From positions 1,407 through 65,406 of the forward strand of contig NW_002476369.1 of NCBI RefSeq assembly GCF_000189635.1: a stretch of DNA of 64,000 nucleotides, in the 5' to 3' direction. Origin of the DNA: Tetrahymena thermophila SB210 (taxonomy: Eukaryota > Ciliophora > Oligohymenophorea > Hymenostomatida > Tetrahymenidae). Below, piece by piece: positions 2 to 35,383 of the stretch (its first letter is position 1; every line of letters starts with the position of its first letter). The position numbers and the translations under genes are program-made. The notes below the pieces were generated by a model. That model saw only the letters and a list, made by a program, of their open reading frames with translations, searched no databases and was not told where the DNA came from.

Positions 2-3000
2 GAAATCCCTTAATAAGACTATTCATAAGAAAAAATTAATTAGGAACTAAAAAAAAAAGAAAAAAATTACTCTTTAGATTGTTGTATTGGATAAGGTGGT
101 GAGTCCTTAATTTATGAAGATAAAAACAATAAAAATGTAATAATAAAATTAATTCATTTATAAATCAATTAAACTATAGAAAAGCAAAAGAAAATTTTTC
201 ACATCTTAAAAAATGAAAAAAAATTTATATAATTGATTGACCACATAGAAATATATGACAATTTACATATATTTATTCATGAAAAATACTAAAAAAATTT
301 GAATTAAGAGTTAGAAGATTTTGACTAATTAGAAAATAAATTTACAGAGCAAAAATTAATAAAGATGATTTTTGATCTAATCCATGGATTAATAGACTTG
401 CAACATAATAAAATCTTACATCTAGATATAAAACCAAAGAATATTTTAGTTGATTATAGAGGAAACTATATTTATACTGATTTTGGAATTTCTGAAATTT
501 ATTAGGAAGGTAGTAGTATGTAAATTAGAGGTTTTACAAATAAATATTCATCATAAGAATAGAGGAATTAAGATGTAAATAAAATAAGTTATAAATCTGA
601 TGTGTATTCATTAGGATAAACTCTCTTAAAAGTTATAGAGAGATTTAAAGAGCTTAATAGCTAAAGCTAATTGATAGAATTTGCAAAATTTATCAATGAC
701 ATTGAAGACATTGTGAATTAAAGAATGGTCTAAGAAGAAATTGACTAAAGATCTGATTGCTATTAAATTCATTCTCGATTCGTTGATGTGTTATTTAATA
801 TTAAAAGTTAAATAGATGCTACATTTATTAACGAAATAGGGCTTGAAATTAATCGCTATCTTACATCGCATTTATCTGTAAATAAATATCTGAAATTACA
901 ATTCTAAATTTAAATTCTGTTGGATTGGTTAATATTTCTTTCAAATAAATGTTTATATTCTTATAATTAATTATCAATAATAAAATATTTTTAAATTTTA
1001 ACAAATAAAAATTAATTTAATTATAAATATAAAAGTAAAAGGAGGTATCTGACAAATTTATGGTTGAAAAACAAATAAAATAATGGCCAATTGAGGTTAT
1101 CTGTTTTTACTTAAAGTAAAATTTTTTAAAATGATAAAAAATATTTTATAATAATTCTTTAATTAGTTGTAAGCCTACAAAAGATTAATTTGCTAACTTA
1201 ATCAATGAAATAGAATTAAATAGAGAAAAGCCTTCTGAATTAAATATTTATTAGGAGTAAATTTAAATATTTTAATTATAAAATTATATTTTGGACAGAT
1301 TCATCTAAATAAAATAATTTAATTATATTAGAAAAAATATGATTGAAGAAGATATCTTAGATTATTTTAAGAGTTTCTCTAAATAGTTCACAAAAATCAA
1401 AGCATATTTTAAGTATTTGTTAAATAGTAAGTTTAAAATAATTTAAAATTATTCTTAAAATTTACAGTAAAAAAGAATACACGATAGAAAAAAAAAATGG
1501 ATTACAAAACAATTAACTATAACTTCTTTAATAAGGTGATAAATTTAATCTAAATTTGAGGTAATTATCTTAATTAATGATTTTTATTGAAATCAATAAA
1601 TATTCAATTTTTTTAGATATTTAAATTTTAAAATAAAGCTAATTTTTTGCTTTAAATTATTTAGTATTTGTTGTCTAATAAAAAATTATATATTATTTAT
1701 TTTGAAATTAGAAATAAACTACTTTACTATTTTAAATCTTCTGATTAATTTACTTTTTGTATTTATTTGCTAGCTTTCTAGATTATAGGTTTTATTTTTT
1801 TTAATAACTATTTTTAATTTATTTTTAAAGCCAAAATGAGAAGATAAAGGACATTATTTTAGGAAAGTTTAAAAATGCAACTTATTTAAATCTAAATTAA
1901 GAGTAATTTTGTATTTGTTTTTATTCTTTTTTGGAAATTAATTTATTTTTTATTATTTTATTTTATTTTATTTTATATTAAGTGGGGTTGAGTGGTTTTG
2001 AAATTTTTTGGAATTTATTTCTTAATTTTTCTAGCAGAATTTCAATAAGTTTTTATTTAAAATTTGAATGCTAAGTAGCCTTCTTGCTTTTTTTAATTTG
2101 TCAGAATTTATCTAATAAATCTATCTGTGATTTTATTATACTGAATTAGTTTACTTACTCATCACAACACAATTAAAATACTAACGAAAGCCATTGTTTT
2201 TTTACCATCCTTTCTCCTCCATATTTATTTATTTAATTCGTTATTTATTCTTATATTTAAAGATATAATCATATTGGTGATTATGGTGCAAAAGAATTAG
2301 GTACAGGAATAGCCTAGTGCTAGAATATCACAACTTTAACGCTTAATTTAAGGTAAAAAATTAATTTATTGATTGATAAACTAATAATTGAGAATTGATT
2401 ATTTTAAGCTTTTGACTTAGTTATTAGATAATTAAGCCAGCTTGCCATTTACTAACTAACTTGCTTATTTACTTACTAACCAAAAAAAAAATATAACGAA
2501 TTTCTTTACTTACTCATCACAACACAACTAAAATACTAACGAAAGCCTATTTTTTTACCATCCTTTCTCCTCCATATTTATTTATTTAATTCGTTATTTA
2601 TTCTTATATTTAAAGAGGGAATTATATTGGTGATGAGGGTGCAAAATATTTAGGCACAGAAATAGCCTAGTGCAAGAATATCACAACTTTAAGGCTTAAT
2701 TTAAGGTAAAAAATTAATTTATTGATTGATAAACTAATAATTGAGAATTGATTATTTTAAGCTTTTGACTTAGTTATTAGCTAATTGAGCCAACTTGCCA
2801 TTTCTAACTAACTTGCCTATTTACTTACTAACCAAATAAAATATAACGAATTTCTTTACTTACTCAACACAACACAACACAACTAAAATACTAACGAAAG
2901 CCATAGTTTTTTTACCATCCTTTCTCTTTCATATTTATATATTTAATTCGTTATTTATTCTTATATTGAAAGTTCGAATAATATAGGTGCATAGGGTTCA

Positions 3001-6000
3001 AAAGATTTAGGCACAGGAATAGCCTAGTGCAAGAATATCACAACTTTGACGCTTAATGCAGAGTAAAAATTAAATTTATTGATTGATAAACTAATAATTG
3101 AGAATAGATTATTTTAAGCTTTTGACTTAATTATTAGCTAATTAAGCCAGCTTATCATTTGCTAACTAACTTGTTTATTTACTTACTAACCAAATAAAAT
3201 ATAACGAATTTCTTTACTTACTCATCACAACACAACTAAAATAATAACGAAATCCATCGTTTTTTTACTATCCTTTCTCCTCCATATTTATTTATTTAAT
3301 TCGTTATTTATTCTTATATTTAAAGTTCGAATAACATTGGTGCATAGGGTGCAAAAGATTTAGGCACAGGAATAGCCTATTCCCAGAATATCACAACTTT
3401 AACTATTAATTTAAAGTAAAAATTAAATTTATTGATTAATAAACTAATAATTGAGAATTGATTATTTTAAGCTTTTGACTTAGTTATTAGCTAATTAAGC
3501 CAGCTTGTCATTTACTAACTAACTTGCTTATTTACTTACTTACTAACCAAATAAAATATAACGAATTTCTTTACTTACTCATCACAACACAACTAAAATA
3601 CGAACGAAAGTCATCGTTTTTTTACCATCCTTTCTCCTCCATATTTATTTATTTAATTCGTAATTTATTCTTATATTTAAAGTTGGAATAATATTGGTGG
3701 ATAGGGTGCAAGAGATTTAGTCACAGGAATAGCCTAGTGCAAGAATATAACAACTTTGACTTTTAACGTAGAGTAAAAATTAAATTTATTGATTGATAAA
3801 CTAATAATTGAGAATTGATTATTTTAAGCTTTTGACTTAGTTATTAGCTAATTAAGCAACCTTTTCATTTACTAACAAACTTTCTTATTTACTTACTAAC
3901 TAACCAAATAAAATATAACGAATTTCTATACTTAATAATCACAACACAACTAAAATACTAATGAAAGCCATCGTTTTTTTACCATCCTTTCTCCTCCATT
4001 TTTATTTATTTAATTCGTTATTTATTTTTATATTTAAAGTTTGAATAAAATTGGTGCATACGGTGCAAAATATATAAGCACAGGAATAGCCTAGTGCCAG
4101 AATATCACAACTTTAAAGCTCAATTTAAGGTAAAAATTAAATTTATTGATTGATAAACTAATTATTGATAATTGATTATTTTAAGCTTTTGACTTAATTA
4201 TTAGTTAATTAAGCCAGCTTGCCATTTACTTACTAACTTGCTTAATTACTTACTAACCAAAAAAAATATAAAGAATTTCTTTACTTACTCACCACAACAC
4301 AACTAAAATACTAAAGAAAGCCATCTTTTTATGCCATCCTTTCTCCTCTATATTTATTTATTTAATTCGTTATTTATTCTTATATTTAAAGAAGGAATGA
4401 TATTGGTGTATAGGGTGCAAAAGATTTAGGTACAGGAATAGCCTATTGCAAGAATATAACAACTTTAACTCTTAATTTATAGTAAAAATTATATTTATTG
4501 ATTGATAAACTAATAATTGACAATTGATTATTTTAAGCTTTTGACTTAGTTATTAGCTAATTAAGCCAGCTTGTCATTTACTAACTAACTTGTTTATTTA
4601 CTTACTTACCAAATAAAATATAACTAATTTCTTTACTTACTCATCACAACACAACTAAAATACTAAAGAAAGCCAGCCATATTTTTTTACCATCCTTTCT
4701 CCTCCATATTTATTTATTTAATTCGTTATTTATTCTTATATTTAAAGAGGAAATAATATTGGTGCATAGGGTGCAAAAGATTTAGGTACAGGAATAGCCT
4801 ATTGCAAGAATATAACAACTTTAACTCTTAATTTATAGTAAAAATTAAATTTATTGATTGATAAACTAATAATTGACAATTGATTATTTTAAGCTTTTGA
4901 CTTAGTTATTAGCTAATTAAGCCAGCTTGTCATTTACTAACTAACTTGTTTATTTACTTACTAACCAAATAAAATATAACTAATTTCTTTACTTACTGAT
5001 CACAATACAACTAAAATACTAACGAAAGCCATCATTTTTTATCATCCTTTCTCCTCCATATTTATTTATTTATTTAATTCGTTATTTATTGTTATATTTA
5101 AAGTTGGAATAATATTGGTGCATAGGGTGCAAAAGATTTAGGTACAGGAATAGCCTAGTGCAAGAATATCACAACTTTGACGCTTAATGTAGAGTAAAAA
5201 TTAAATTTATTGATTGATAAACTAATAATTGAGGATTGATTATTTTAAGCTTTTGACTTAATTATTAGCTAATTAAGCCAGCTTATCATTTGCTAACTAA
5301 CTTGCCTATTTACTTACTAACCAAATAAAATATAACGAATTTCTATACTTAATAATCACAACACAACTAAAATACTAACGAAAGCCATCGTTTTTTACCA
5401 TCCTTTCTCCTCCATATTTATTTATTTAATTCGTTATTTATTCTTATATTTAAAGTTCGAATAAGATTGGTGCATAGGGTGCAAAAGATTTAGGCACAGG
5501 AATAGCCTTGTGCCAGAATATCACAACTTTGACGCTTAATGTAGAGTAAAAATTAAATTTATTGATTGATAAACTAATAATTGAGGATTGATTATTTTAA
5601 GCTTTTGACTTAGTTATTAGCTAATTAAGCCAGCTAGCCATTTACTAACTAACTTGCTTATTTACTTACTTACTAACCAAATAAAATATAACGAATTTCT
5701 TTATTTACTAAACACAACGCAATTACAATACTAACGAAAGCCATCGTTTTTTACCATACTTTCTCCTCCATATTTATTTATTTAATTCGTTATTTATTCT
5801 TATATTTAAAGAGGGAATTATATTGGTGATGAGGGTGCAAAAGATTTAGGCACAGGAATAGCCTAGTGCCAGAATATCATAACTTTGACACTTAATGTAG
5901 AGTAAAAATTAAATTTATTGATTGATAAACTAATAATTGAGAATTGATTATTTATAGCTTTTGACTTAGTTATTAGCTAATTAAGCCAGCTTGCCATTTA

Positions 6001-8401
6001 CTAACTAACTTGCTTATTTACTTACTTACTAACCAAATAAAATATAACGAATTTCTTTATTTACTAAACACAACGCAATTACAATACTAACGAAAGCCAT
6101 CGTTTTTTACCATACTTTCTCCTCCATATTTATTTATTTAATTCGTTATTTATTCTTATATTTAAAGAGGGAATTATATTGGTGATGAGGGTGCAAAAGA
6201 TTTAGGCACAGGAATAGCCTAGTGCCAGAATATCATAACTTTGACACTTAATGTAGAGTAAAAATTAAATTTATTGATTGATAAACTAATAATTGAGAAT
6301 TGATTATTTATAGCTTTTGACTTAGTTATTAGCTAATTAAGCCAGCTTGCCATTTACTAACTAACTTGCTTATTTACTTACTTACTAACCAAATAAAATA
6401 TAACGAAGTTCTTTACTTACTCATCACAACACAACTAAAATACTAACGAAAGCCATTGTTTTTTTACCATCCTTTCTCCTCCATATTTATTTATTTAATT
6501 CTTTATTTATTCTTATATTTAAAGTTCGAATAAGATTGATGCATAGGGTGCAAAAGATTTAGGCAAAGGAATAGCCTAGTGCAAGAATATCACAACATTG
6601 ACGCTTAATGTAGAGTAAAAATTAAATTTATTGATTGATAAACTAATAATTGAGAATTGATTATTTTAAGCTTTTGAATTAGTTATTAGCTAATTAAGCC
6701 AGCTTGCCATTTACTAACTAACTTTCTTATTTACTTACTTACTAACCAAATAAAATATAACTAATTTCTTTACTTACTTACTCATCACAACACAACTAAA
6801 ATACTAACGAAAGCCATCGTTTTTTACCATCCTTTCTCCTCCATATTTATTTATTTAATTCGTTATTTATTCTTATATTTAAAGATATAATCATATTGGT
6901 GATGAGGGTGCAAAAGATTTAGGCACAGGAATAGCCTTTTGCCAGAATATCACAACTTTAAAGCTCAATTTAGGGTAAAAATTAAATTTATACTAATTTT
7001 ATTGATTTATAAACTAATAAATGAGATTTGATTATTTTAAGCTTTTGACTTAGTTATTAGTTAATTAAGTCAGATTGCCATTTACTAACTAACTTGCTTA
7101 TTTACTTACTAACCAAATAAAATATAACGAATTTCTTTACTTACTCTTCACAACACAACTAAAATACTAACGAAAGCCATCGTTTTTTACCATCCTTTCT
7201 CCTTCATATTTATTTATTTAATTCGTTATTTATTTTTATATTTAAAGAGGGAATAATATTTGTGATGAGGGTGCAAAAGATTTAGGCACAAGAATATCCT
7301 ATTCCCAGAATATCACAACTTTAAAGCTCAATTTAGGGTAAAAATTAAATTTATTGATTGATAAACTAATAAATGAGAATTGATTATTTTAAGCTTTTGA
7401 CTTAATTATTAGCTAATTAAGCCAGCTTGCCATTTACTAACTAACTTGTTTATTTACTTAATTACTTACTAACCAAATAAAATATAACGAATTTCTTTAT
7501 TTACTAAACACAACGCAATTACAATACTAACGAAAGCCATCGTTTTTTACCATCCTTTCTCCTTCATATTTATTTATTTAATTCTTTATTTATTCTTATA
7601 TTTAAAGAGGGAATTATATTCATGATGAGGGTGCAAAAGATTTAGTCCCAGGAATAGCCTTGTGCCAGAATATCACAACTTTGACGCTTAACGTAGAGTA
7701 AAAATTAAATTTATTGATTGATAAACTAATAAATGAGATTTGATTATTTTAAGCTTTTGACTTAGTTATTAGCTAATTAAGCCAGCATGCCATTTACTAA
7801 CTAACTTGCTTATTTACTTACTAACCAAATAAAATATAACGAATTTCTTTACTTACTCTTCACAACACAACTAAAATACTAACGAAAGCCATCATTTTTT
7901 ACCATCCTTTCTCCTTCATATTTATTTATTTAATTCGTTATTTATTCTTATATTTAAAGAGGGAATTATATTGGTGATGAGGGTGCAAAAGATTTAGGCA
8001 CAGGAATAGCCTAGTGCAAGAATATCACAACTTTAAAGCTCAATTTAGGGTAAAAATTAAATTTATTGATTGATAAACTAATAAATGAGAATTGATTATT
8101 TTAAGCTTTTGACTTAATTATTAGCTAATTAAGCCAGCTTGCCATTTACTAACTAACTTGTTTATTTACTTACTAACCAAATAAAATATAACGAATTTCC
8201 TTACTTACTAATTACAACACAACTAAAATACTAACGAAAGCCATCGTTTTTTACCATCCTTTCTCCTTCATATCTATTTATTTAATTCTTTATTTATTCT
8301 TATATTTAAAGAGGGAATTATATTGGTGATGAGGGTGCAAAAGATTTAGGCACAGGAATAGCCTAGTGCAAGAATATCACAACTTTAAAGCTCAATTTAG
8401 G
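2..8401 (+). CDS. Kinase-LRR protein, locus 1 (5' partial, introns inferred)
   Basis: Read with TAA/TAG as Gln. The frame is open from base 2 with no ATG, so the start lies outside the window. A glycine-rich loop (IGQGGESLIYED, from about base 86), a VAIK-like lysine (VIIKLI), a catalytic loop HLDIKPKN at 419 (the usual HRD Arg is Leu) and DFG (TDFGIS) mark a Ser/Thr-type kinase; APE is not clear. The frame moves from phase 2 to phase 1 between about 1100 and 1190 (candidate intron 1116-1183) and again near a run of ten A's at 1488-1497, ending ..FNLNLR before a GTAATT donor at 1561. A 72-nt divergent LRR exon (1831-1902) and eighteen 90-nt LRR exons (2263-8401) follow in compatible phase. 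The kinase may signal from an LRR sensing tail. The 3' end is unresolved, and the frame shifts could be introns, assembly errors or decay. Confidence 0.65.
2263..8401 (+). repeat. LRR exon array 1: 18 intact tandem exon-intron units of ~356 bp
   Basis: Eighteen exons of exactly 90 nt start at 2263, 2616, 2973, 3326, 3683, 4040, 4392, 4748, 5104, 5456, 5812, 6168, 6525, 6885, 7248, 7608, 7960 and 8312. Each follows ..TTAAAG (one ..TTGAAAG) and precedes GTAAAA. The first base completes a codon begun by the previous exon and the last two bases start the next, so every exon is symmetric and interchangeable. None has an in-frame TGA. The repeat reads NNIGDEGAKDLGTGIAQC, then KNITTLTLNL plus one or two variable residues: a ribonuclease-inhibitor-like LRR with the strand at TTLTLNL. 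Variation clusters in the first eight residues (IGDEG or IGAQG) and at the last few. Introns of about 262-273 nt are nearly as conserved as the exons. A 19th unit is truncated at 8666-8684. Confidence 0.9.
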
Positions 8402-8665
8402 GTAAAAATTAAATTTATTGATTGATAAACTAATAATTGAGAATTGATTATTTTAAGCTCTTGACTTGGTTATAAGCTAATTAAGCTAGCTTGTCATTTA
8501 CTAACTAACTTGCTTATTTACTTACTTACTAACAAAAAAAAATATAACGAATTTCTTTACTTACTCATCACAACACAACTAAAATACTAAATAAAAACAA
8601 TCATTTTTTTACTATTATTTCTCCTCCCAATTTATTTATTTAAATCGTTATTCTTATGTTTAAAG

Positions 8666-8684
8666 TTGGAATAATATTGGTGAT
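8666..8684 (+). pseudogene. Truncated 19th LRR exon of array 1
   Basis: After a TTTAAAG acceptor the exon begins like the others (NNIGD) but breaks after 19 nt. It jumps straight to intron sequence (AATAATTGAAAATT..), so the rest of the exon, the donor and about 20 nt of intron are deleted. The next intron copy and the conserved 3' flank follow. The frame stays open past the break until a TGA near 9059, so a read-through terminal exon cannot be excluded. Confidence 0.7.
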
Positions 8685-8699
8685 ATACCAATAATTGAA

Positions 8700-10205
8700 A
8701 ATTTATTTTTTAAGCTTTTGACTTAGTTATTAGCTAATTAAACCAGCTTATCATTTACTAGTTAACTTGCTTATTTATATACTTAATTACTTATTTACTA
8801 ATAAAATAAAACGAATTTCTTTACTTACTCATCATAACACAACTAAAATTCTAACGAAAGCTATTTTTTTTTATAATTCTTTGAATAAAATACACCCATT
8901 TCACACTGTACACATTTTTTAATATAAGTAGCAAATACATATTGGCTATTTTGTAGAGTCACCATTATATTTTTTTTAATGTGTACTTTTATTTCTCGTA
9001 ATATTACTTTAATAAAATAAATGTCTAAAAAAATAAAATTAAAAATAAAAAATATTTGAAGTCTAAATAAAAATAACAAATTTAAATATTTTATTGAAAA
9101 TATATTTTTAATATTAAGATTAAATAATTATAAATAATAAAAAAATTCTAAACTTTCTTCATTATTTATTATAAATTTAAGTCAAATACTAACAACAAAC
9201 CCAATTTTAATATTTTATAATTCATAAATAAATTATATTTTAGCAATACAGTTTATTTATATATGATTATATTATTAGATGCTTTTACGAGTTTATCATA
9301 ACTTCTATCATTTTATTAAAAAATTAATTAAAAAAAATAAAAAAATAATTATATATTCTAAATATCTATGAAAATTATGATTTTTAACTATTCTATTTGA
9401 ATTGCGAACTGTGAGGACGCTCTCTTTCAAAATCCTTAATTTTAATGTGCTAAAATTTGTATAACATTATGTGGATTTAAAATAAATTCCCTTTTTTATA
9501 GTTTTTAGATTTAATTAAAACATAATTAAATTTTTAAAACATAATAATTTTCAATATATTTAAATCTTAAAACTGATAATATAATTATTTCTTTAATAAA
9601 AATTTTTGATTGGTTTAAATTTTATTTGTTGAAATTATAAATTTTAATTTTAAAGTTTAGGTGAATAATAGTGTATTTAATTGAAGAATTAACTCTAACA
9701 ATAATTATAGGCTAAAGTAAAATAATATTAATTAAATTTATAAAAAATTGATTTATTTTAAATAATAAAATAGATAAATATATTTTGAAAATCAACTAAA
9801 AGTTAGATAAGACAATCCAATAATATAATAATTTTATAAATTAAAAAATTTAACTCTTCATAATTATGTCTCATAAAAATATTTATTTACTAATTTTGTT
9901 TTTTTATATATTGATTGATTAATTAGATCATGGTTATTATTTATACTTTGATTTATACCTAAAAATTTTGTTTAAATCCTAACCAAAAGTAAACTATCTT
10001 TGAAAATATTTTATTTTTTAAAAACATGAGCTGATGTGATGAATTTATATAATTTATTATAAATACTGTTATTTGAATCTGGAAATATCACTTTAAATAT
10101 GTCAAACAAAAAAATGTATTTTATATAAATAAAAGGCTGACTGTATATTTAATTATCTATTCACATAATTACTTTCTCACACTAAATTTAATAAAAAATT
10201 ACTAT
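8700..10205. repeat. Duplicated 3' flank, copy 1 (mate at ~22920-24435)
   Basis: From the last array intron onward, about 1.4 kb is co-linear with 22920-24435 with scattered substitutions and small indels. Shared landmarks include AACGAAAGCTA plus a run of nine T's, CACACTGTACACAT, GCAAATACATATTG and TGAATTGCGAACTGTG. Similarity stops near 10205. A short minus-strand ORF (8861-9079) falls here and has a diverged counterpart in the mate. I do not call it a gene, because the similarity follows from the DNA duplication. The gene's true terminal exon may lie within the first 300 bp. Confidence 0.8.
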
Positions 10206-11810
10206 AAAATAATTTTTTTAGCCCTTAATTTATTTATGTGGCTGTTAATTAATGAGGATTTAGAATATTTATCATTTATTTCAAAAATAATTTTTATTTC
10301 AATATGAATTTTATTAAAATCTATGTAAATGAATTTTCTTTCAAAAAAATGAAAAAAAATCCTTATATAATTGTTTTATTTAGAAAATAAAAAAATATTA
10401 ATAAAAATTAATGTTCAATGTGATTAATATTTATAAATGTAAGATAGTGTTACAAAAACCAAATTATTCTTTTTATTATTTGAAATTAATAATTTATTTT
10501 ATGACTTTTAGCTATAGAACTATTGTTTTAGTACATATTCAAGTTGAGAGTAAAAAATTTGCATAAAAAATATTGAGGTTTGAAGATATTCAGTCTATAA
10601 TTTAATGATAATATATATAGATTAGTACGAGAAATGTGAATTATGATTAACAAAATAATATTTATTTGTTAAAATCTTATAATTTAATTAACTTAAATAT
10701 TAAAAAGTGAAGTAAGATTAATTTAATAAAATATACATATTAATATTTACTTTTAAATATTTCTATGTAGTTTTTTTATAAAGAAATTGAAAAAATCCAT
10801 CAAACAGGAATATTTATGAAAAAATTTATTACAAATTTTTTTAAAAAAAGAAATGAAAAAATTTATTGATTTGTTTAAACTGCTATTTGGTTTTGAGAAA
10901 GAAAAAAATAAATAAATTGTAAAAGATGTTAGTATATTGATAAATAAGTTAAGACTTTTTCCTTAAGACTCAATTAATTAATATAGACAGATATTTTAAA
11001 TGAAAGTAAATGAGCTTTTCCATTAATTATTATTCATTAATTAATTGAATTTGTTTTTAAATTTTAGCCTGAAATTTTGTTCAAAAAATGTAATCAAAAA
11101 ATATAAAGAGCCGTAAGAAACTAATCAAAGTACTCAAATGTTTAGCTAATAAATTTCTACCAACTCTATGATATATAGGCTATGCTAAAAACCATAATAC
11201 CTATAACTGGGTAAAGCTTTTAGTATTTAGCTCAACTAGGTATTAATAACAAACTTTGAATTTCTTTGATGTATCAGTATTTTTTAGAATTAGATACTCA
11301 ATTTTTTACTTCTATTAATATATTAAATGAATTTGCCAATTTAAATATTTAAAATAATTTAATTTTTATTTATTTTACACTTACTAATAAGATAAAACAA
11401 TTTTATTTTATTATCTCATGTGGTTTTTTGTTTATAAAATAAAAATAATTATTATTTTTTATTTTAAAATAAATTATGTTTTATTATAATTATTCAATAT
11501 ATTATTTTATTACATTTTTTTATAAAAAATTAATATTATTTTTATTAATTTGCATTAGAATATTTAATGATATAATTTGAGAGATGCTATTATATTTGAA
11601 AACTAATAAAATCTTCATCTTGATTAGGCTTTTTTTTTATCAGCTAAATTAATCGAATTTCTTTGAATTAATCTCTATAAATAGTGATACTCAAAATCTC
11701 TTTTGCATATATTTTTTTCACATAAAAAAAAAACAACTGTTTTTAGTAAAAAAAGCATACCTTACAGCCTACTCTTAAAAAGTTAATAGCCAAGCCAACT
11801 CCTCACCTCA
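10206..11810. other. Gene-poor AT-rich stretch with one coding-like patch
   Basis: Mostly featureless AT-rich DNA. One stretch at about 11069-11266 is open and protein-like with Gln codons (residues such as RAVRNQSKYSNVQL and IIPITGQSFQYLAQLG) after a TTTTAG acceptor-like site. It ends in TGA, and no start codon or partner exon is clear. It may be a remnant or an exon of an unrecognised gene. Confidence 0.35.
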
Positions 11811-14240
11811 ATGGGATAGAATTAATTAAAATCAAAAAAGTCCATAGAATTTTATTAATAATTAGTAAACGGAATATCAGAATAGATCCCCGAGGATTGT
11901 CAGATACAAAAGCATGGTTTGAAAGAAATAATCAAATTGATCCTCAACCAGAAAAAATAATTCTAAAATTTCGAGTACTTAAACAGCGGTGCTTATGCCC
12001 TAGTCTTGAAGGCTCAAAACATTAAGAGTAATCGCATGGTTGCCCTTAAATTCTTAACATGTACTAGCAAAGAGGGTTTGAAAGGCATCGAATCTTTGAA
12101 AAAAGAATATGAATTGCTTCAGAAATTCAGCTAATCTGATTTTTTGGTAAATGTCTATGATTGCTTCTATCTAATGGATGAAGATGTAGAAGTGGATAAA
12201 AATGGAAATAAAAAACCCAAAGAGAAGTCCTTTTTTGTGACGGAAATGGAGCTTTGCGAATGTATTTAAAATATTATTTTTCCTCCATTTTTTTCACCCC
12301 CAATTTTTAAAAAAATATGCATGAAAAAGCTAAAAAAATATAATGCTATTTTATTTTTTACATCATTTATGATTATTGAAGTTCCTCCATTTTAAAAAAG
12401 TCAAATTCATATTTATTTTTTCTAAGTCTTTTTGGATTTGATTACTTTTGAAGTAGAAATAGATTTGTGTTAAGCTAATTTATTTAATTTGGTAGCTAAC
12501 TATAATAGAAATTATTTATTTTATAAAAATTTATTATTTTTAATTTTTTAATTACTCCCCAAAAAAAAGTATCTTTAAATAAATTTCTATTGAATTTTAG
12601 AAGGTTTCTAAATTAAATGTTCTAGAAGATTAGTTAATCGAAATTTTATAATCTATTAACCCCATATTATAATTCTAAATTAAATTTTATAATGCATTTT
12701 TTAATAATTAACAAAATTTTATGAATAAAGTTTTTATAATTTAAATTAAATAAATATCTCATTAATAAATTTTTTAAATAATCATTTTTATTTTTGTCAA
12801 TAAACTTTATTTTTTTAAAATTATTAGAATTATTAAAATATAATAATTTAATTTTTTTAATTTAAATTATTGATTAAAAAATTATATTTTAATGGTTAAT
12901 TAGAATTAATTAATCGAAAATAAATTTTTAGTTAAATTAGATTAAAATTGTTTAATTTAAAAATTAATTAAAATTAAATTTTTAGTACATTAGATTATAA
13001 AATTATAAAATAAAAATTTCAAAATCTAATAAATAAGAAAATTTATTTATTTTTAAGAAGCTTTTATTTATTTTAAATTAAATTAAATTTAATAAAAAAT
13101 AAATTATTTAGTAATATAATGAACAAAATTAGTTTAAATTATCGAATTTAATTGATTATTATTTTTAATTTAGAAAGACTTTTAAATTAAAATATGTTTT
13201 TAAATTTATAGAGAGCAAATTTTAAAAATATTTTTTTTTAATTTAATAACTATTAAAAGATATTTGTTTTAATTTTGTAAATAGAAAATCTTAAACAGCT
13301 CTTCGATTATTTAAGAAACACATAACTTCCATCTCAAGAAATAAAGGAAATAATAGCTATTCAAATGTTAGAAGGATTAAATACCCTCCATACCAAAAAT
13401 ATCATGCACAGAGACATCAAGCCTCATAATTTCCTAGTTTGTCCTTCTCAAACTTATGGATTTACAATCAAAATCTGTAAAAAATTTTATTATTTACAAA
13501 ATTTATCAACTAAAAAAATTATTGATACAAGGTGATTTGGGATTTGCATCTGCAATAACAAAATCGAAAACCCATTACCCATCAAAGGTAAACATCAAAA
13601 TATTATTTAAAATTAATCTTAGATTATTTTAATCTATAGAAAGGAACTGAAGCTTACTTCGCTCCAGAGGTAGAAAATGGAGAATCCAGAATTCAGGTTT
13701 TTAAACAAAACTAATCTTTCAATTTTTAATTTAATTTTAATGTTTAAAGTCGGACCTCTTTTCTCTAGGACTAGTATTACTTGAGCTAGATAATCTAAAT
13801 GTTCTAAATCAAAATTGGATTGGCTTTGAAATAAAAAGAGAGATATATTAAGGAGAAGGAATAGCTTCGAAATATTAGATTGATAGAAATTCTAATATTT
13901 ATAAAATAGTCGAGATTTGCTTAAAACCAAATTATTTGGAAAGGACAACTTCAGGAGACCTACTTTCTGAACTTATTAAACTTCATGGAAAACCACTGAA
14001 ATTCACACTATCATCTATGATATTAGAAGTAATGAAAATATTTACTAATTTTTTTTGGCTAATATAATTAACTAACCATTTAATTCAAAATATTTAATGC
14101 AATGCTAAACTTTGCTTCTTGATAATAAAAGTCAATTTAATAAAATTTTTGATCTTCAGATTGTATTGGAAAATATCGGATCCGAACTGCTCAGCCCTGC
14201 TTGTAATAGAGAATAAACATTAATTATTTTTTTTTATTGA
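11811..14240 (+). CDS. Protein kinase domain A, upstream of the LRR locus 2 kinase
   Basis: Exons 11811-12261, 13285-13476, 13532-13587, 13640-13696, 13750-14028 and 14160 onward join in phase with GT..AG introns; the first intron is unusually long at 1,023 nt. The ATG at 11811 opens the frame. Kinase landmarks in order are the Gly loop LNSGAYALVLKA, the VAIK-like lysine (VALKFL), HRDIKPHN, DLG in place of DFG (IKICDLGFA), APE (YFAPEVENG) and subdomain IX SDLFSLGLVLLELD. All core catalytic residues are present, so it is probably active. If exon 6 is read through, the ORF stops at TGA 14238-14240. If instead a GTAATA donor at 14203 joins 14263, the product continues into kinase B as one two-kinase LRR protein. 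I slightly favour the joined model because kinase B has no convincing start of its own. Confidence 0.75.
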
Positions 14241-14262
14241 TAGGAACAAATTCCGTAGTAAG

Positions 14263-17200
14263 CATAATAAATATTCAATCAAATTAATGAACTTGAAAAA
14301 AAGAAAGTAAAAATATAATAATATTTATATTTTACATTCCAAATAATTAATTTTATGATTTTCATAATAATCTTTTCTAAGCAAACTTAATTTGAGAAGG
14401 ATGCACAAATCTTGATTGATAACACAGATTCAAGAATAATGAAAAGAGATACTAATCAACAATTTACAAAAGTAGAAATTCTATCCAAGTTATTAAAAAG
14501 TCTATATGAAGAAAAGAAATATGCAAAAAATTTCCAAATTCTTAATTTTGGAAGCTTTGGTATGGTATTATCTACTAAAAAAGTTAAGTTCAACAACAAG
14601 GAAATAGTATTAAAAATACAAAAGATAGTAAACGAGCAAGAAATTTAAAATGAAATTAGAATAATGTAATAATTAAAAACACCTTTAGTTGTTTAGCTGT
14701 ATGACAATTATGTCATAGAATAAGCTACAGCACCTGAAAGATATGTGGTTTTTGAATTAGAAAAGTGTTCATGTAAATTTTTAAATAACAATTTATAACA
14801 TTGCAAATATTTTAATTTTTTATTCAATTAAATTTAAGTATTAAATATACCACTTAATGTATTTTAGTACATATTAGGCTAAGATAACCAATAATAAGCT
14901 ACAAATTTATTGTTGAGGTTATAATATCTATAATAATTTTATCATATTATTTATTGTAAAAAAGGCTCACTTTAGGAATATCTAGAAAGATAAGGAAAAG
15001 AAAAAGAGTTTAGTGATGAAGAAAAATTGGATATTGCAATCCAAGTAATTGACTCTGTCAATTATATTCATTGTTTTAATATTATTCATAGAGATATTAA
15101 ACCTGACAATTTTTTGGTTTGTTTGGATGGCAATCAACTTGAAATCAAACTATGTAATTTATCCTGATATTTTTTAATTTTTAAAAACAATTTAATCATT
15201 TTAATATTAGGCGATTTTGGATTATCAGCTTAACTTGAATAAAATTGTGAATAAATTGAAACTTTAGATGTAAGTCATTTTAGTTAATATACAATTAATT
15301 ATCAAGAAATTTTAATATATTTTTAGATGGTAGGAAATTGGGCGTACATGGCACCTGAAATTTTAGCTAAAAATGATGATTAAAATAAGATATACTCTAA
15401 AAAAGTAACTATTGTTATAACTACTTCTTAATATATACAAATAAATTTTTGTTTTAAGTCGGATTCTTATTCAGTTGGCTTACTACTATCTTTGCTTGAC
15501 AATTACTTAATTTTGAAAGAATAAACAGGAGCTACTTTCATGAATATGACTTCAAAATAATATGAAGAGCCTTTCAAAAAATAAAAAATAAATATTAAGG
15601 AAAACACTGAAATATTTAAATTTATTAAACAATTAGTTGTTTGGGAAAGAGTCAAGAGGGATTCTCTTTCTATTATTGTTGAATAGAATTCAAACAAATT
15701 CAAATCAAACTAAAATGATATGAAATAAATTATATCATAACATTATTTAGGTCCTTTAAAAAATGTTGAGGCTATAAACATTGGATCTATTGCTCCATTA
15801 CTTACTTAAAATTAGATTCAAATTTAGGATATCAAGTAAATAAAAATAAATCGTATGGAGAATTTGCATAAAATTAGAGAATTTCAAAATATCGAAATAA
15901 ATTTAAGGTAATTATATTAAAATTAAATATCCACAAATTATTATTTAAGAATTCAAATACAATATTTAATTATTAAAAGTTAAAAACTTTTAAATTAAAG
16001 ATAAAATTATTATCTATTAATACAATCTACAATAAAAAAAATAGACTTTATTATTTAATTAATAATAAAATCTATTGAGGTGATAAGTAAAATTTTCAAA
16101 AATATTTCAAATGCAAAAAATTGCCTATAGTTAAAAAATAATTAAAATAATTTCATAAATATTAAAATATAACCCACCAATTAAAAACTTAATAAAATGA
16201 AAATTGGTAAGTAAAGCTTGATTTTAGATTTACCTTATAAAAATTCTCTCATTGATAATACTGTTTTTAATTTATTAACTTGCTTATTTACTTACTCATC
16301 ACAACACAACTAAAATAATAACAAAAGACAAAGTTTTTTTTACTATCTTTTCTCCTCCATTTTTATTTATTTAATTCGTTATTCTTTCTTATATTAAAGT
16401 GAGAATAACATTGGTGATGAGGGTTCAAAAGAATTATGCACAGGAATAGCATAGTGTAAGAATATCACAACTTTGACGCTTAATTTAAAGTAAAAATTAA
16501 ATTAATTGATTGATTGATAAACTAATAATTGAGAATTGATTATTTTAAGCTTTTGGCTTAGTTATTAGCTAATTAAGCCAGCTTGTCATTTATTAACTAG
16601 CTTGCTTATTTACTTACTAACCAAATAAAATATAACTAATTTTTTACTTATACATCACAACACAACTAAAATATTAATAAAAGCCATCGTTTTTTTACCA
16701 CGCTTTCTCCTCCATATTTATTTATTTAATTCGTTATTTATTCCTATATTTAAAGTAAGAATAATATTGGTGCATTGGGTTCAAAAGAATTAGGCAAAAG
16801 AATAGCAAAGTGCAAAAATATCACAACTTTGATGCTTAATTTAAAGTAAAAATTAAATTTATTGATTGATAAATTAATAATTGAGAATTGATTATTTTAA
16901 GCTTTTGACTTAGTTATTAGCTTGTCATTTATTAACTAACTTGCTTATTTACTTACTAACCAAATAAAATATAACGAATTTATTTATTTACTCATGACAA
17001 CATAACTAAAATACTAACGAAAGCCATCGTTTTTTTACTATACATTCTCCACCATTTTTATTTATTTAATTCGTTATTCTTTCTTATATTTAAAGTGATA
17101 ATAATATTGGTGATGAGGGTACAAAAGATTTAGGCACAGAAATAGCCTAGTGCAATAATATCACAACTTTGACGCTTAATTTAGTGTAAAAATTTAATTT

Positions 17201-20200
17201 ATTGATTGATTGATAAACTAATAATTGAGAATTGATTATTTTAAGCTTTTGACTTAGTTATTAGCTAATTAAGCCAACTTGTCATTTATTAACTAACTTG
17301 CTTATTTACTTACTAACCAAATAAAATATAACTAATTTCTCTACTTACTTATCACAACACAACTAAAATACTAACCAAAGTCATTGTTTTTTTACCATCC
17401 TTTCTCCTCCATATTTATTTATTTAATTCGTTATTTATTCTTATATTTAAAGTAGGAGTAAAATTGGTGCATTGGGTTCAAAACAATTAGGTAAAGGAAT
17501 AGCAAAGTGCAAAAATATCACAACTTTGACGCTTAATTTAAAGTAAAAATTAAATTTATTGATTGATAAATTAATAATTGAGAATTGATTATTTTAAGCT
17601 TTTGACTTAGTTATTAGCTTCTCATTTATTAACTAACTTGCTTATTTACTTACTAACCAAATAAAATATAACTAATTTCTTTACTTATACATCACAACAC
17701 AACTAAAATATTAATAAAAGCCATCATTTTTTTACCATGCTTTCTCCTCCATATTTATTTATTTAATTCGTTATTTATTCCTATATTTAAAGTGAGAATA
17801 ATATTGGTGCATAGGGTGCAAATGATTTAGGCACAGGAATAGCCTAGTGCAAGAATATCACAACTTTGACGCTTAATTTAAAGTAAAAATTAAATTTATT
17901 GATTGATAAATTAATAATTGAGAATTGATTATTTTAAGCATTTGACTTAGTTATTAGCTAATTAAGCCAGCTTGTCATTTATTAACTAACTTGCTTATTT
18001 ACTTACTAACCAAATAAAATATAACGAATTTATTTACTTACTCATCACAACATAACTAAAATACTAATGAAAGCCATCGTTTTTTTACTATAAATTCTCC
18101 TCCATTTTTATTTATTTAATTCGTTATTCTTTCTTATATTTAAAGTGAGAATAACATTGGTGATGAGGGTTCAAAAAATTTAGGTAAAAGTATAACCTTG
18201 TGCAAGAATATCACAACTTTGACGCTTAATTTAAGGTAAAAATTAAATTTATTGATTGATAAACTAATAATTGAGAATTGAAATTGATTATTTAAAGCTT
18301 TTGACTTAGTTATTAGCTAATTAAGCCAGCTTCTCATTTATTAACTAACTTGCTTATTTACTTACTAACCAAATAAAATATACTAATTTCTTTACTTACT
18401 TATCACAAAACAACTAAAATACTAACCAAAGTCATTGTTTTTTTACCATCCTTTCTCCTCCATATTTATTTATTTAATTCGTTATTTATTCTTATATTTA
18501 AAGTCAGAATAATATTGGTGCATTGGGTTCAAAAAAATTAGGCACATAAATAACAGAGTGCAATAATATCACAACTTTGATGCTTAGTTTAAGGTAAAAA
18601 TTTAATTTATTGATTGATAAACTAATAATTGAGAATTTATTATTTTAAGCTTTTGACTTAGTTATTAGCTAATTAAGCCAGCTTGTCATTTAAAACTAAC
18701 TTTCTTATTTACTAACTTACTAACCAAATAAATTATAACAAATTTCTTTACTTACTCATCACAACATAACTAAAATACTAATGAAAGCCATCGTTTTTTT
18801 ACTATCCATTCTCCTCCATTTTTATTTATTTAATTCATTATTCTTTCTTATATTTAAAGTTACAATAATATTGGTGATGAGGGTACAAAAGATTTAGGCA
18901 CAAGAATAGCCTAGTGCAATAATATCACAACTTTGACGCTTAATTTAAGGTAAAAATTAAATTTATTGTTTGATAAACTAATAATTGAGAATTGATTATT
19001 TAAAGCTTTTGACTTATTATTAGCTAATTAAGCCAGCTTGTCATTTATTAACTAGCTTGCTTATTTACTTACTAACCAAATAAAATATAACGAATTTATT
19101 TACTTATTCATCACAATACAACTAAAATAATAACCAAAGTCATTGTTTTTTTACCATCCTTTCTCCTCCATATTTATTTAATTCATTATTTATTCTTATA
19201 TTTAAAGTGATAATAAAATTGGTGCATTATGTGCAAAAGATTTAGGGACAAGTATAGCCTTGTGCAAAAATATCACAACTTTGACTCTTAATTTAAGGTA
19301 AAAATTAAATTTATTGATTGGTAAACAAATAATTGAGAATTTATTAATTTAAAGTTTTTTTGACTTATTTATCAGTCAATTAAGCTAGCTTATCATTTAC
19401 TAACTAAATAACTTGCTTATTTACTTACTTATTTATTTACTAAATAAATAAAAAAAACAAATTTCTTTATTTACTCATCACAACACAACTAAAATACTAA
19501 CTAAAGCCATCATTTTTTTACTATCTTTTTCTCCTCCATATTTATTTATTTAATTCATTATTTATTTTTTATTATATTTAAAGTTACAATAATATTGGTG
19601 ATGAGGGTATAAAAGATTTAGGCACAAATATAGTCTAATGGAAGAATATCACAAATTTGACGCTTAATTTAAAGTAAAAATTAAATTTATTGATTGATAA
19701 ACTAATAATTGAGAATTGATTATTTAAGCTTTTGACTAAGTTATAAGCTAATTAAACCAGCTTATCATTTACTATTTAACTAACTAGCTTATTTAGTTAC
19801 TTACTTATTGAACAAATAAAATATAACGAATTTTTTTACTTACTCATCACAAAGCAACTAAAATACTAACGAAAGCCATCTTTTATTTACAATTCTTTTT
19901 AAATGTTTATTTATTTAATTATTTTATTATCCTTATATTTAAAGGAGCAATAAAATTGGTGTTAAGGGTGTAAAAGATTTAGGAACAAGCATAGCTTTGT
20001 GGAAGTATATCACAGCTTTGACTCTTGATTTACAGTAAAAATTTAATTTATTGATTGATAAACTAATAATTGAGAATTGATTATTTAAGCTTTTGACTTA
20101 TTTATTAGCTAATTAAACAATCTTGCCATTTACTAACTAATATGCTTATTTACTTACTTACGAACCAAATAAAATATAAATAATTTCTTTACTTACTAAT

Positions 20201-22912
20201 CACAAATCAACTAAAATATAAACGAAAGCCATCATTTTTTACTTTCCTTTCTCCTCCATATTTATTTATTGAATTAGTTCATTTTCCTTATATTTAAAGG
20301 TCTAATAATATAGATGCATAGGGTGTAAAAGATTTAGGCACAGGAATAGCCTAGTGCGAGAAAATCACAACTTTGTAATTTATTTTAGAGTAAAAATTTA
20401 ATTTATTGATTGATTCACTAATAATTGAGAATTGATTTTTTAAGCTTTTGACTTAGTTATTAGCTAATTAAACCAGCTTATAATTTACTAACTAACTTGC
20501 TTATTTACTTACTAACCAAATAAAATATAACGAAATTCTTTACTTACTCATCACAACACAACTAAAATAATAACGAAAGCCATCGTTTTTTTACCATCCT
20601 TTCTCCTCCATATTTATTTATTTAATTCATTATTTATAATTATATGTAAAGTTATAATAATATTGGTGATGAGGGTGCAAAAGATTTAGGCACATATGTA
20701 GTCTTATGGAAGAATATCACAAATTTGACGCTTAATTTAAAGTAAAAATTAAATTTATTGATTGATAAACTAATAATTGAGAATTGATTATTTAAGCTTT
20801 TGACTTAGTTATTAGCTAATTAAACCAGCTTATCATTTACTAACTAACTATGTTTCTTATTTACTTACTTAATTACTTACTAACCAAATAAAATATAATG
20901 AATTTCTTTACTTACTCATCACAACACAACTAAAATACTAACGAAAGCCATCGTTTTTTATCATTCTTTCTCCTCCTTATTTATTTAATTATTTCATTTT
21001 CCTTATATTTAAAGGAGCAATAAAATTGGTGAGCTGGGTGTAAAAGATTTAGTAACAGGAATAGCTGAGTAGAAGAAAATCACAACTTTGACGCTTGATT
21101 TAAGGTAATAGATTAATTTATCGATTGATAAACTGATAATTGTGAATTGATTTTTTAAGCTTTTGACTTAGTTATTAGCTAATTAAACTAGCTTATCATT
21201 TACTAACTAACTTGCTTATTTAATTACTTACTTAATTACTTTCTTACTTACTAACCAAATAAATTATAACTAATTTCTTTACTTACTCATGACAACATAA
21301 CTAAAATATTAACGAACTCTATATTTATTTATTTATTTATTTAATTATTTCATTTTATTTAAAGGAGCAATAAATTTGGAGATAATGGTGTAGAAGATTT
21401 AGGAAAAGGAATAGCTAAGTCGGAGAATATCACAACTTTGACGCTTGATTTAAGGTAACAGATTAATTTATCGATTGATAAACTGATAATTTTGAATTGA
21501 TTTTTTAAGCTTTTGACTTAGTTATTAGCTAATTAAACCAGCTTATCATCTACTAACTAACTATGTTTCATATTTTACTTACTTACTAATCAAATAAAAT
21601 ATAACGAATTTCTTTACTTACTCATTACAACACAACTAAAATACTAAAGAAAGCCATCGATTTTTTACCATCCTTTCTCCTCCATATTTATTTATTTAAT
21701 TCGTTATTTATTCTTATATTTAAAGTTTCAATAATATTGGTGATAAGGGTGCAGAATATTTAGGCCCATAAATAGCCAACTGGATAAATATCTCAACTTT
21801 GACGCTGAATTTACAGTAAAAATTTAATTTATTGATTTATTGATAAACTAATAATTGAGAATTGATTTTTTAAGCTTTTGACTTAGTTAGTTATTAGTTA
21901 ATTAAACAATCTTGTCATTTACTAACTAACATACTTATTTAGTTACTTAATAACCAAATAAAATATAACAAATTTCTTTACTTACTCATCACAACACAAC
22001 TAAAATACTAACTAATACCATCGTTTTTTTACCATCCTTTCTTTCTCCTACATATTTATTTATTTAATTCGTTATTTATTCTTATATTTAAAGAGGGAAT
22101 AATATTGATAAGGGTGCATTTTTTTTAGGCACAGGAATATCCTTTAGCAAGAATATCACAACTTTGACTCTAAATTTAGTGTAAAAATAAATTTATTGAT
22201 TGATAAACTAATAATTGAGAAATGATTATTTTAAGCTTTCGAATTAGTTATTTGCTAACTAAATCAGCTTGTCATTTACTAACTAACTAACTTGCTTATT
22301 TATTTACTTACTTACTTAATTTCTAACCTAATGAAATATAGCGAATTTCTTTACTTACTCATTACAAAACAATTAAAATACTAACAAAAGTCATCGTTTT
22401 TTTATCATCCTTTCTCGTTTATATTTATTTATTTAATTAGTTCATTATCCTTATATTTAAAGGGACAATAAAATGAATGATTATGGTGTAAAATATTTAG
22501 CATAAGGAATAGGCTAATGCAAAAATATCACTACTTTGATGCTTGATTTACGGTAAAAAATTAATTTATTGTCTGATATACTAATAATTGAGAATTTATT
22601 TTTAAAGCTTTTGACTTAGTTATTAGCTAATTAAACCAGTTTATCATTTACTAGCTAGCTTGCTTATTTACATACTTAATTACTTACCTACTAACAAAAT
22701 AAAATATAACAAACTTACTCATCACAACACAAATAAAATACTAACGAAAGCCATTGTTTTTTTACAATCCTTTCTCCTCCATATTTATTTATTTAATTCG
22801 TTATTTATTCTTATATTTAAAGTTCGAATAATATTCAAGATGAAGGTGCAAATGATTTAGGCAGAGGAATAGCCTAGTGCCAGAATATCACAACTTTGAT
22901 GCTTGATTTACG
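14263..22912 (+). CDS. Kinase B plus LRR array, locus 2
   Basis: Kinase exons 14263-14306, 14382-14772, 14965-15153, 15211-15269, 15327-15404 and 15459-15907 join in phase. They encode a coiled or linker lead (QQIFNQINELEKKK), Gly loop LNFGSFGMVLS, VLK lysine, HRDIKPDN, DFG (KLCDFGLS), APE (NWAYMAPEIL) and SDSYSVGLLL. The last kinase exon ends ..NIEINLR in the phase that the first LRR exon (16400) needs; nineteen LRR exons follow to 22912. The linker resembles the sequence just before the locus 1 kinase (IPQQ..IN..L.KKK). The first in-frame ATG is 14439, but coding similarity extends upstream, so the start may instead be 11811 via kinase A. A terminal exon within 23090-23205 is possible (TGA near 23201 after NTLTAHCTH), but its acceptor is poor. 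The organisation suggests a cytoplasmic kinase controlled by an LRR ligand or partner surface. Confidence 0.8.
16400..22912 (+). repeat. LRR exon array 2: 19 tandem exon-intron units
   Basis: Exons start at 16400, 16756, 17096, 17453, 17793, 18146, 18504, 18860, 19208, 19584, 19945, 20300, 20652, 21015, 21365, 21726, 22094, 22463 and 22823. All are 90 nt except 22094-22180, which is 87 nt and lacks one Gly codon but stays in frame. No exon contains TGA in frame, and every junction codon avoids TGA. Donors are GTAAAA, or GTAATA/GTAACA at 21105 and 21455. Unit spacing is 340-376 bp. The array is more diverged than array 1, especially units 11-18. The first ten units show a five-unit higher-order order of motifs (GDEGS, GALGS, GDEGT, GAL, then again). 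The repeat family and intron core match array 1. Confidence 0.9.
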
Positions 22913-22919
22913 GTAAAAA

Positions 22920-24435
22920 TTTTAATTTATTGTTTAGTAAACTAATAATTGAGAATTGATTTTTTAAGCTTTTGACTTAGCTTTTAGCTAATTAAACCAG
23001 TTTGTCATTTAATAACTAACTAACTTGTATATTTATTTAATTACTTACTTACAAACAAAATAAAATAAAACGAATTTTTTACTTACTCATCACAACACAA
23101 CTAAAATCCTAACGAAAGCTATTTTTTTTTATAATTCTTTGAATAAAATACACTGACTGCACACTGTACACATTTGTTCAAATAAGTAGCAAATACATAT
23201 TGACTATCTTGTACAGTCACCAATATATTTTTTAAAAATAAAATAAAATAAACATCTAAAAAAATAAAATTAAACTTAAAAAATATTTGAAGTCTAAATA
23301 AAAATAACAAATTTAAAAATTTTATTGGACATATATTTTTAATATTAAGATTAAATAATTATAAATAATACAAAAATTCTAAACTTTCTTCATTATTTAT
23401 TATAAATTTAAGTCAAATACTAACAACAAACCCAATTTTAATATTTTATTAATCATAATTTAATTTCTAATAAAAAAATAAATTATATTTTAGCTATGCA
23501 GCTTATTAATATATGATTATATTATTAGATGATTTTATGAGTTTATCATAACTTCTATCATTTTATTAAAAAATTAATTAAAAAAAATAATTTTACATTT
23601 TTATGATTTTTAACTATTCTGTTTGAATTGCGAACTGTGCGGACTCTCTCTTTCAAAATGCTTAATTTTAATGTACGAAAATTTGTAAATAACATTCTGT
23701 GGACTTAAAATATAAATCCCCTTTTTATAGTTATTAGATTTAATTAAAACATAATTAAATTTTCAAAACATACTAATTTTCAATATATTTAAATAATTAA
23801 AAATTCTTAGTTGTAATCTTAGAACTGATAATATAATTATTTCTTTATTAAAAAATTTTAGATAGATTTAAAATTTTATTTGTTGAAATTATAACTTTTA
23901 ATTTTAAAGTTTAGATGAATAATAGTGTATTTAATTGGAGAATTCACTCTCAAAATAATTATAGAAGGCTGAAGTAAAATAATATTAATTAAAATTTATA
24001 AAAAATTGATTTATTTTAAATAATAAAATAGATAACTATATTTTGAAAATCAACTAAAAGTTAGTTAAGACAATCCTATAATTTAATAATTTTATAAATT
24101 AAAAAGTTTAACTCTTCATAAATATGTCTCATAAAAATATTTATTTACTAATTTTGTTTTTTTATAAATTGATTGATGATCATGTTTTGATTTATACCTA
24201 AAAATTTTGTTTAAATCCTAATCAAAAGTAAACAATCTTTGAAAATATTTTATTTTTAAAAACATAAGCTGATGTGATGAATTTATATAATTTATTACAA
24301 ATACTGTTATTTGAATCTGAAAATATCACTTTAAATATGCCAAACAAAAAAATGTATTATTTTATAAATAAAACGCTGACTGTATATCTAATTATCAATT
24401 CAAATAATTCATTCTCACACTAAATTTTAAAAAAT
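22920..24435. repeat. Duplicated 3' flank, copy 2
   Basis: Mate of 8700-10205, diverging near 24435. The small minus-strand frame at 23119-23310 matches the one in copy 1 only because the DNA is duplicated. Substitutions and indels between the copies show the duplication is not brand new. Confidence 0.8.
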
Positions 24436-35293: not shown

Positions 35294-35383
35294 AGAAAAT
35301 AAAATTGGTGATGAAGGTTTATTAGGCTTAGCTTCTGCTTTAGCAAATTGCACTAACATCTCTAATCTGACACTTATTCTTCG
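35294..35383 (+). pseudogene. Orphan 90-nt LRR exon
   Basis: Exactly 90 nt between an ..AAAAAG acceptor and a GTAAAA donor, in the same phase as the array exons. It reads ENKIGDEGLLGLASALAN followed by CTNISNLTLILR: same family, but many codons differ from both arrays. I found no neighbouring LRR exon or kinase within about 1 kb on this strand. It is either a relic of a lost LRR gene or one exon of a gene whose others I cannot recognise. Confidence 0.7.

Follow-up and report, generated by a model that had tools for sequence, protein, structure and literature searches.

Two loci joining kinases to arrays of LRR exons

We analysed a window of 64,000 nucleotides from Tetrahymena thermophila SB210 (contig NW_002476369.1, positions 1,407 to 65,406), in which two loci on the forward strand carry protein kinase sequence followed by a long tandem array of exons encoding leucine-rich repeats (LRRs) (Table 1). 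Coding stretches of the window are open only when TAA and TAG are read through, in line with the ciliate code. A telomerase stretch elsewhere in the genome matched PDB 2r4g, from T. thermophila, at 101 of 102 aligned residues, the exception being its first residue. Positions 1000-24500 were scanned for stretches of 60-129 nt flanked by AG and GT(A/G), in three phases, that were LRR-like and TGA-free. The scan returned 37 exon clusters, 18 at locus 1 and 19 at locus 2, in tandem runs of at least three, and all 37 contained a phase-2 candidate with common splice sites. This exon was 90 nt long in 36 clusters and 87 nt in the remaining one (22094-22180). Alternative AG/GT candidates were also found within many clusters; the common acceptor (ending in aaag) and donor (starting with gtaa) lay on the 90-nt one, and the junctions of the locus 2 gene model were concordant with this choice. 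An earlier, sequence-only reading of the window had described exactly these exons, with one phase, a single 87-nt exception and no in-frame TGA.

The absence of TGA was a condition imposed by the scan. The frame was nevertheless informative, because no unit was missing: neighbouring exons were spaced 340-376 bp apart throughout both arrays with every unit present, and their 1072 codons contained no TGA, versus 20.7 expected at the intron rate. The two non-coding frames of the exons contained 49 and 29. Introns of the arrays averaged 266 nt (range 250-286). Tandem Repeats Finder reported a period of 356 with 18.4 copies and 91% matches at 2143-8685, and a period of 340 with 8.8 copies and 84% matches at 16284-19352. 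The proposed phase symmetry was also borne out, all 37 exons being phase 2 and those of the locus 2 model joining in frame. Array 1 contains an exact repeat of 415 bp at the offset of one unit, the mark of a recent unit duplication, and a remnant of a truncated exon follows the array at about 8666-8686. The repeat pattern LxxLxLxxNxI with a G..A..L helical part, together with a Pfam LRR_6 match, indicates a probable ribonuclease inhibitor (RI)-like LRR fold; when 10 of the 18 locus 1 repeats were used as the query, the best match in PDB was a ribonuclease inhibitor-like protein (E 8.5e-18).

The locus 2 model, built from splice sites in the sequence, comprised 1323 codons spread over 30 exons, uninterrupted by a stop, and encoded two kinase domains followed by 19 LRRs. 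All junctions kept the frame, and the phase-2 end of kinase B matched what the LRR exons require. A putative exon at 14160 would have put a stop into kinase A, but a TGA-interrupted kinase A was rejected in favour of an intron between 14028 and 14244, because the acceptor before 14244 was common to 13 of 13 aligned rows and the donor after 14028 aligned in 8 of 13. When the frame was followed beyond the last LRR exon, the first TGA came 13 codons on at locus 2 and 15 codons on at locus 1. The 1406 contig bases preceding the window read N, and the 5' end of the locus 1 gene lies beyond readable sequence. A kinase-LRR fusion at locus 1 is suggested by order and strand across the stretch of about 800-2263 that separates its kinase from its array. 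The kinases were confirmed by Pfam, and the predicted fusion fits the open model at locus 2, where there proved to be two kinase domains.

The LRRs had been placed in front of the kinase; the order is the reverse, with kinases 5' (N-terminal) and LRRs 3' (C-terminal). No membrane-length hydrophobic segment was evident in the locus 2 model, the highest mean hydropathy over 19 residues being 1.16, and a cell-surface receptor is not indicated. A receptor kinase with an outer LRR, as in the layout of plant LRR receptor-like kinases (LRR-RLKs), was rejected on the kinase-first order and the hydropathy. NB-ARC or NACHT domains were not found, the Pfam matches of the locus 2 model at E up to 0.001 being kinase-type and LRR families only. 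Both products are probably intracellular kinase-LRR proteins.

Table 1. Features of locus 1 and locus 2, in window coordinates
Feature	Position	Strand	Description and evidence
Locus 1 protein kinase domain	83-802	+	HLD replacing HRD; Pfam PF00069, E 1.8e-21, residues 28-267 of open frame 2-1339
Locus 1 array	2263-8401	+	18 LRR exons, each of 90 nt and in phase 2; mean intron length 266 nt; exon scan; LRR_6 E 4e-43 on joined exons
Recent one-unit tandem duplication	5637-6407	+	Exact 415-bp repeat at 5637 and 5993 (offset 356); sequence identity
Locus 1 3' flank	8757-10120	+	85% similar to locus 2 3' flank; sequence comparison
Locus 2 kinase domain A	11811-14028	+	HRD, DLG, APE; start codon guessed
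Locus 2 kinase A exons	11811-12261, 13285-13476, 13532-13587, 13640-13696, 13750-14028	+	
Locus 2 linker exon and kinase domain B	14244-15907	+	Linker exon 14244-14306; kinase with HRD, DFG, APE
Locus 2 kinase B exons	14382-14772, 14965-15153, 15211-15269, 15327-15404, 15459-15907	+	Last exon ends in phase 2
Locus 2 array	16400-22912	+	19 LRR exons in phase 2, all of 90 nt but for one of 87 nt; mean intron length 267 nt
Locus 2 3' flank	23015-24358	+	Paralogous to locus 1 3' flank; sequence comparison

A family of tandem-kinase paralogs

The genome (101.0 Mb, 445 contigs) was searched for paralogs of both loci. The N-lobe of kinase B gave 49 matches, 24 of which, the window's own included, were near full-length (from residue 1-3 to 107) with at least 63% identity. 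A genome search for LRR exons, in which the best 150 of 3383 candidates were scored, placed LRR exon matches within about 5 kb downstream and on the same strand at no fewer than 20 of these 24 places, among the matches listed. The places without an LRR exon among the matches listed were C211, C34, C96:25384 and C190; at C211, where no LRR exon was found, the contig ends soon after the kinase. Twelve of the 23 paralogs were taken for detailed comparison, and kinase A lay upstream of kinase B in all 12. Counting only phase-2 stretches of a length divisible by three and with an LRR score of at least 10, the window and paralog stretches together held 191 LRR exons, of which 188 were 90 nt long. 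Arrays of the paralogs contained 3 to 36 exons, some being cut by the ends of contigs or stretches; this range and the exact 415-bp unit duplication agree with the change in copy number that had been anticipated for these loci. The nearest kin of the locus 1 kinase, among 124 matches, were at C195 (76%), which has at least 10 regular LRR exons within 4 kb, and at C419 (63%). The 1.36-kb 3' flank showed similarity over more than 500 bases at 14 or more further places, with the best 39 of 60 candidates scored.

Exons of the arrays diverge more than their introns

Mean pairwise divergence was 0.154 for exons and 0.058 for introns at locus 1 (17 units), and 0.225 and 0.109 at locus 2 (17 units). 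Base composition was excluded as the source of this contrast, since the exon excess was present at columns with an A/T majority (0.131 versus 0.033; 0.167 versus 0.064) and at columns with a G/C majority (0.198 versus 0.139; 0.335 versus 0.262). In a stricter comparison, units were aligned separately in pairs and every indel was counted as a change, against the introns. Exons remained more divergent than introns in 114 of 120 pairs at locus 1 and in 102 of 105 at locus 2, which excluded alignment gaps as the source. The 138 units with both flanking introns clean gave 9453 pairs when indels were counted in this way. The exon was the more divergent in 93.8% of them and, when disjoint unit pairs were taken, in 65 of 69 (sign test, 3e-15). 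The ratio of exon to intron divergence exceeded 1 in 14 of the 15 arrays, out of 16, that had three or more usable units. An Rfam scan of the window at gathering scores gave no match, and a known structured RNA was rejected on this ground as the reason for intron conservation.

Kinase B served as the control and behaved in the opposite way. Among 13 genes, two of which (C24 and C211) were incomplete in the alignment, intron divergence was 0.151 versus 0.109 for exons, with the intron higher in 74 of 78 pairs; the ratio of nonsynonymous to synonymous substitution (dN/dS) was 0.37, and the aligned exons of all 13 genes were free of TGA. In the arrays, the unit nearest by exon and the unit nearest by intron were identical for only 16 of 163 units, and exon and intron distances correlated at 0.30 and 0.28. 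Exon and intron histories therefore look uncoupled.

Divergence is concentrated on the predicted LRR strand face

Across the 188 exons of 90 nt (170 for the junction codon), entropy peaked at codon 30 (3.49), codon 1 (3.30), codon 28 (2.41) and codon 7 (2.33), and was lowest at codons 16, 22 and 25 (0.05). Codons 28, 30, 1 and 3 are the x positions of LxLxxNxI, in a register that agrees with RI-type LRRs in PDB; in LRR structures these x residues point outward on the strand. The intron interrupts codon 30 after its second base, and the third base is supplied by the following exon. Among the 170 strand motifs, 130 were distinct.

We then compared nonsynonymous (pN) and synonymous (pS) divergence in 12 disjoint pairs of units whose introns were at most 3% apart. 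Strand pN (codons 28, 30, 1 and 3) was 0.261, versus an exon pS of 0.049 and an intron divergence of 0.019, while pN was 0.004 at scaffold positions and 0.048 at the others. Strand pN thus exceeded exon pS 5.4-fold (bootstrap over pairs 3.1-11.4) and intron divergence 13.7-fold; without the window arrays, which left 11 of the 12 pairs, the ratio to exon pS was 5.2 (2.7-11.0). In wider sets this ratio was 4.1 (introns at most 5% apart, 27 pairs), 3.4 (8%, 45 pairs) and 3.0 (69 pairs). Relative to synonymous sites within the strand codons themselves, strand pN was 4.1-fold in the 12 closest pairs, a value based on just 1.5 synonymous changes. In all 8 subsets, pN was highest at codons 30 and 1. 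The 34 tracts of three or more differences were searched for donors in an exon sample that holds part of the genome's exons; 23 had at least one variant present in another sampled exon, and 11 had no match.

Relation to known LRR systems

The gene class is already known. Xiong et al. (2019, PMC6564038) described tandem 90-bp LRR exons in Tetrahymena with phase-2 introns, units of about 347 bp and kinase fusions; their class covers ten Tetrahymena species, with 1,874 LRR genes in T. thermophila, 934 of them in group III. They proposed exon shuffling and, as an immune-like guess, possible recognition, listed protein kinase (PK) fusions in S36A, and linked LRR genes to REP retrotransposons. Group III genes as described there resemble the window loci, with exons of 90 bp between phase-2 introns, a unit of about 350 bp, a variable number of units and PK fusion; their intron peak is about 257 bp versus a mean of 266 in the window, and units are visible at the nucleotide level in both. 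The tandem-kinase layout and the excess of exon over intron divergence were not found in passages of the main text of PMC6564038, and that main text gave no matches for "positive selection", "diversifying" or "more conserved". No other report on selection in LRR genes with 90-bp exons was found among the papers listed from the open-licence PMC literature. Within that scope, what is added to a known class is the site-specific divergence and the family of tandem-kinase genes.

Two further LRR sequences occur in the window outside the arrays. An older-looking LRR gene at 50132-52394 (+) has 11 phase-2, 90-nt LRR-like stretches with pattern scores of 7-9 out of 9; 7 of its 10 spacings are 141-153 bp, giving intron lengths of 51-63 nt, in keeping with the older group II as outlined in PMC6564038. 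At 35294 (+), a single phase-2 stretch of 90 nt carries the full LRR pattern.

Other organisms also join an LRR surface to signalling or diversify it. Plant LRR-RLKs and nucleotide-binding LRR proteins (NLRs) carry an LRR recognition surface on a signalling part, with fast-changing xxLxLxx residues; the window loci differ from them in placing the kinase first and the LRRs last, nearer to the order of NLRs, and in having one exon per LRR. Variable lymphocyte receptors (VLRs) of lampreys consist of LRR modules with a fixed scaffold and variable strand residues, assembled somatically from cassettes. The window loci likewise combine a fixed scaffold with a variable strand, but their variety lies in the genome. 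In gibbon opsins, as reported in PMC3213168, exons diverge more than introns, conversion homogenising the introns while selection on the exons resists. The L/M opsins described there are two genes with few tuning sites, whereas the window loci have many short modules and a surface-wide pattern.

Weighing the explanations

The explanation that we consider probable is that these are young kinase-LRR loci with 90-bp exons in which modules are exchanged in the germline, and in which selection for a varied strand face would have produced a repertoire of sensors. One exon with its intron would constitute an exchangeable LRR module of 30 residues. In the germline, unequal crossing-over together with gene conversion would add, remove and swap modules and homogenise the introns; we infer this exchange and homogenisation because of the tandem identity and the uncoupling of exons from introns. 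Selection would retain and favour amino-acid differences at the outward-facing strand residues, and rearrangement of modules can also alter the most variable residue, because it is coded across the exon-exon junction. The varied LRR faces may then bind varied targets, such as prey, parasite or self/non-self molecules, and would signal via the conserved kinases. Selection on strand-face amino acids appears to explain most simply why strand pN exceeds pS next to a frozen scaffold, and the comparisons support the view that a recognition surface attached to conserved kinases diversifies in the germline, constraint having been measured on kinase B.

Several observations weigh against this explanation. 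Exon pS was itself 2-3 times the intron divergence in the 12 closest pairs and 5 times in the five closest, and the contrast would therefore partly reflect intron homogenisation or old exons. Synonymous change was raised at the strand codons too: the ratio of strand pN to their own synonymous sites fell to 1.9, 1.6 and 1.5 in 27, 45 and 69 pairs, and to 0.90 when all 9453 pairs were used and codon 26 was counted in. Together with the raised exon pS, this suggests that introns were homogenised or exon differences protected as well. Array-wide dN/dS was about 1 (0.87 and 1.18 for the two window arrays, 1.03 over all pairs), and whole LRR exons, at 0.176 between arrays, were about neutral when set against kinase introns (0.151) and kinase pS (0.205); by these two yardsticks the strand positions alone stand out. 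Codons 6 and 7, just past the strand, ranked on par with codon 28. The strand and scaffold sets were defined after the entropies and one pair listing were known, so that the low scaffold value (0.08) is partly by choice, and codon 26 belonged to the first strand set and was later dropped. One array, C261a (5 units), lacked the exon excess (ratio 0.91), and C419, kin to the locus 1 kinase, had only seven degenerate, irregular LRR exons within 4 kb. In the published account (PMC6564038), young LRR genes have a median Ka/Ks of about 0.4, with purifying selection emphasised gene-wide; that emphasis differs from our strand-site result and is consistent with a constrained kinase and scaffold.

The same observations have been weighed for the other explanations. 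Intron homogenisation alone, in which conversion keeps introns alike and selection merely shields old exon differences without a push for new ones, would accommodate the exon pS above intron divergence and the raised synonymous change at strand codons, and it has an equivalent in the gibbon L/M opsins (PMC3213168). We judge it unlikely, given a strand pN in close pairs that is 3- to 5-fold over exon pS and 1.5- to 4-fold over its own synonymous sites. Less likely again is neutral exon shuffling, by which unequal crossing-over resizes arrays and exon variety is a by-product with no role in recognition. Tandem identity, variable unit number, the common 3' flanks and an array-wide dN/dS near 1 all agree with it; however, the frame is intact in every unit of both window arrays, codons 4, 16, 22 and 25 are near-invariant (entropy at most 0.13) whereas pN at the strand codons is above pS among close pairs, and kinase B is constrained. 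Neutral exon divergence had been named in advance as the result that would speak against a diversified surface, and it describes the exons taken whole, with a dN/dS of about 1, but does not account for the contrast of strand with scaffold positions.

Exon-targeted hypermutation or templated exchange of segments, in the germline or during macronuclear development, might generate variety of this kind, with differences clustered beside near-identical introns and a variant found in another sampled exon for 23 of the 34 tracts. Mutation alone would not spare conserved codons adjoining changed ones, and 11 tracts were unmatched in a sample holding part of the genome's exons; we regard this as very improbable. 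Combinatorial alternative splicing of phase-symmetric exons into many isoforms per gene would be tolerated by the frame, because all modules are phase 2, but the splice sites are near-uniform with no evident exon classes, and the main text of Xiong et al. (PMC6564038) uses "alternative" once, on another matter. We give it as little credence as hypermutation. An extension of the germline-exchange explanation, that of anticipatory protist recognition by a repertoire of kinase-LRR genes numbering two dozen or so, if not more, appears improbable, if slightly less so. In it, binding residues would be driven to change in each module, one hypervariable residue being coded at the junction and open to rewriting by a rearrangement, and the choice of exons in RNA, or rearrangement of arrays in the many-copy macronucleus, would multiply this variety inside a single cell lineage. 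Together, the observation made by the sequence-only reading was confirmed, and its interpretation as a diversified recognition surface was partly supported, the site-specific divergence between strand and scaffold being what favours it.

Other features of the window

At 36152-39560 (-), a REJ domain (Pfam E 4.8e-29) lies in a large open frame, beside which there is a cysteine-rich frame at 40456-41607. A fragment of a VPS13 adaptor-binding domain was found at 62388-63453 (-) (Pfam E 6.9e-13). A 471-bp unit is repeated in 1.8 copies with 85% matches at 44325-45181, with no named gene. At 25748-28288 (+), a lysine/serine-rich open frame of 846 codons matched nothing in Pfam at E up to 0.1.

Implications for Tetrahymena

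A constrained kinase, a frozen scaffold, a fast-changing strand face and uniform introns form the kind of pattern seen in receptor families of plants and animals. A role in recognition for the LRR expansion of Tetrahymena appears in Xiong et al. (PMC6564038) as a suggestion only, argued from purifying selection. That printed guess now has a residue-level signal. The targets of the kinase-LRR genes are now testable in a genetic model ciliate, with named genes, named residues and about two dozen tandem-kinase candidates.

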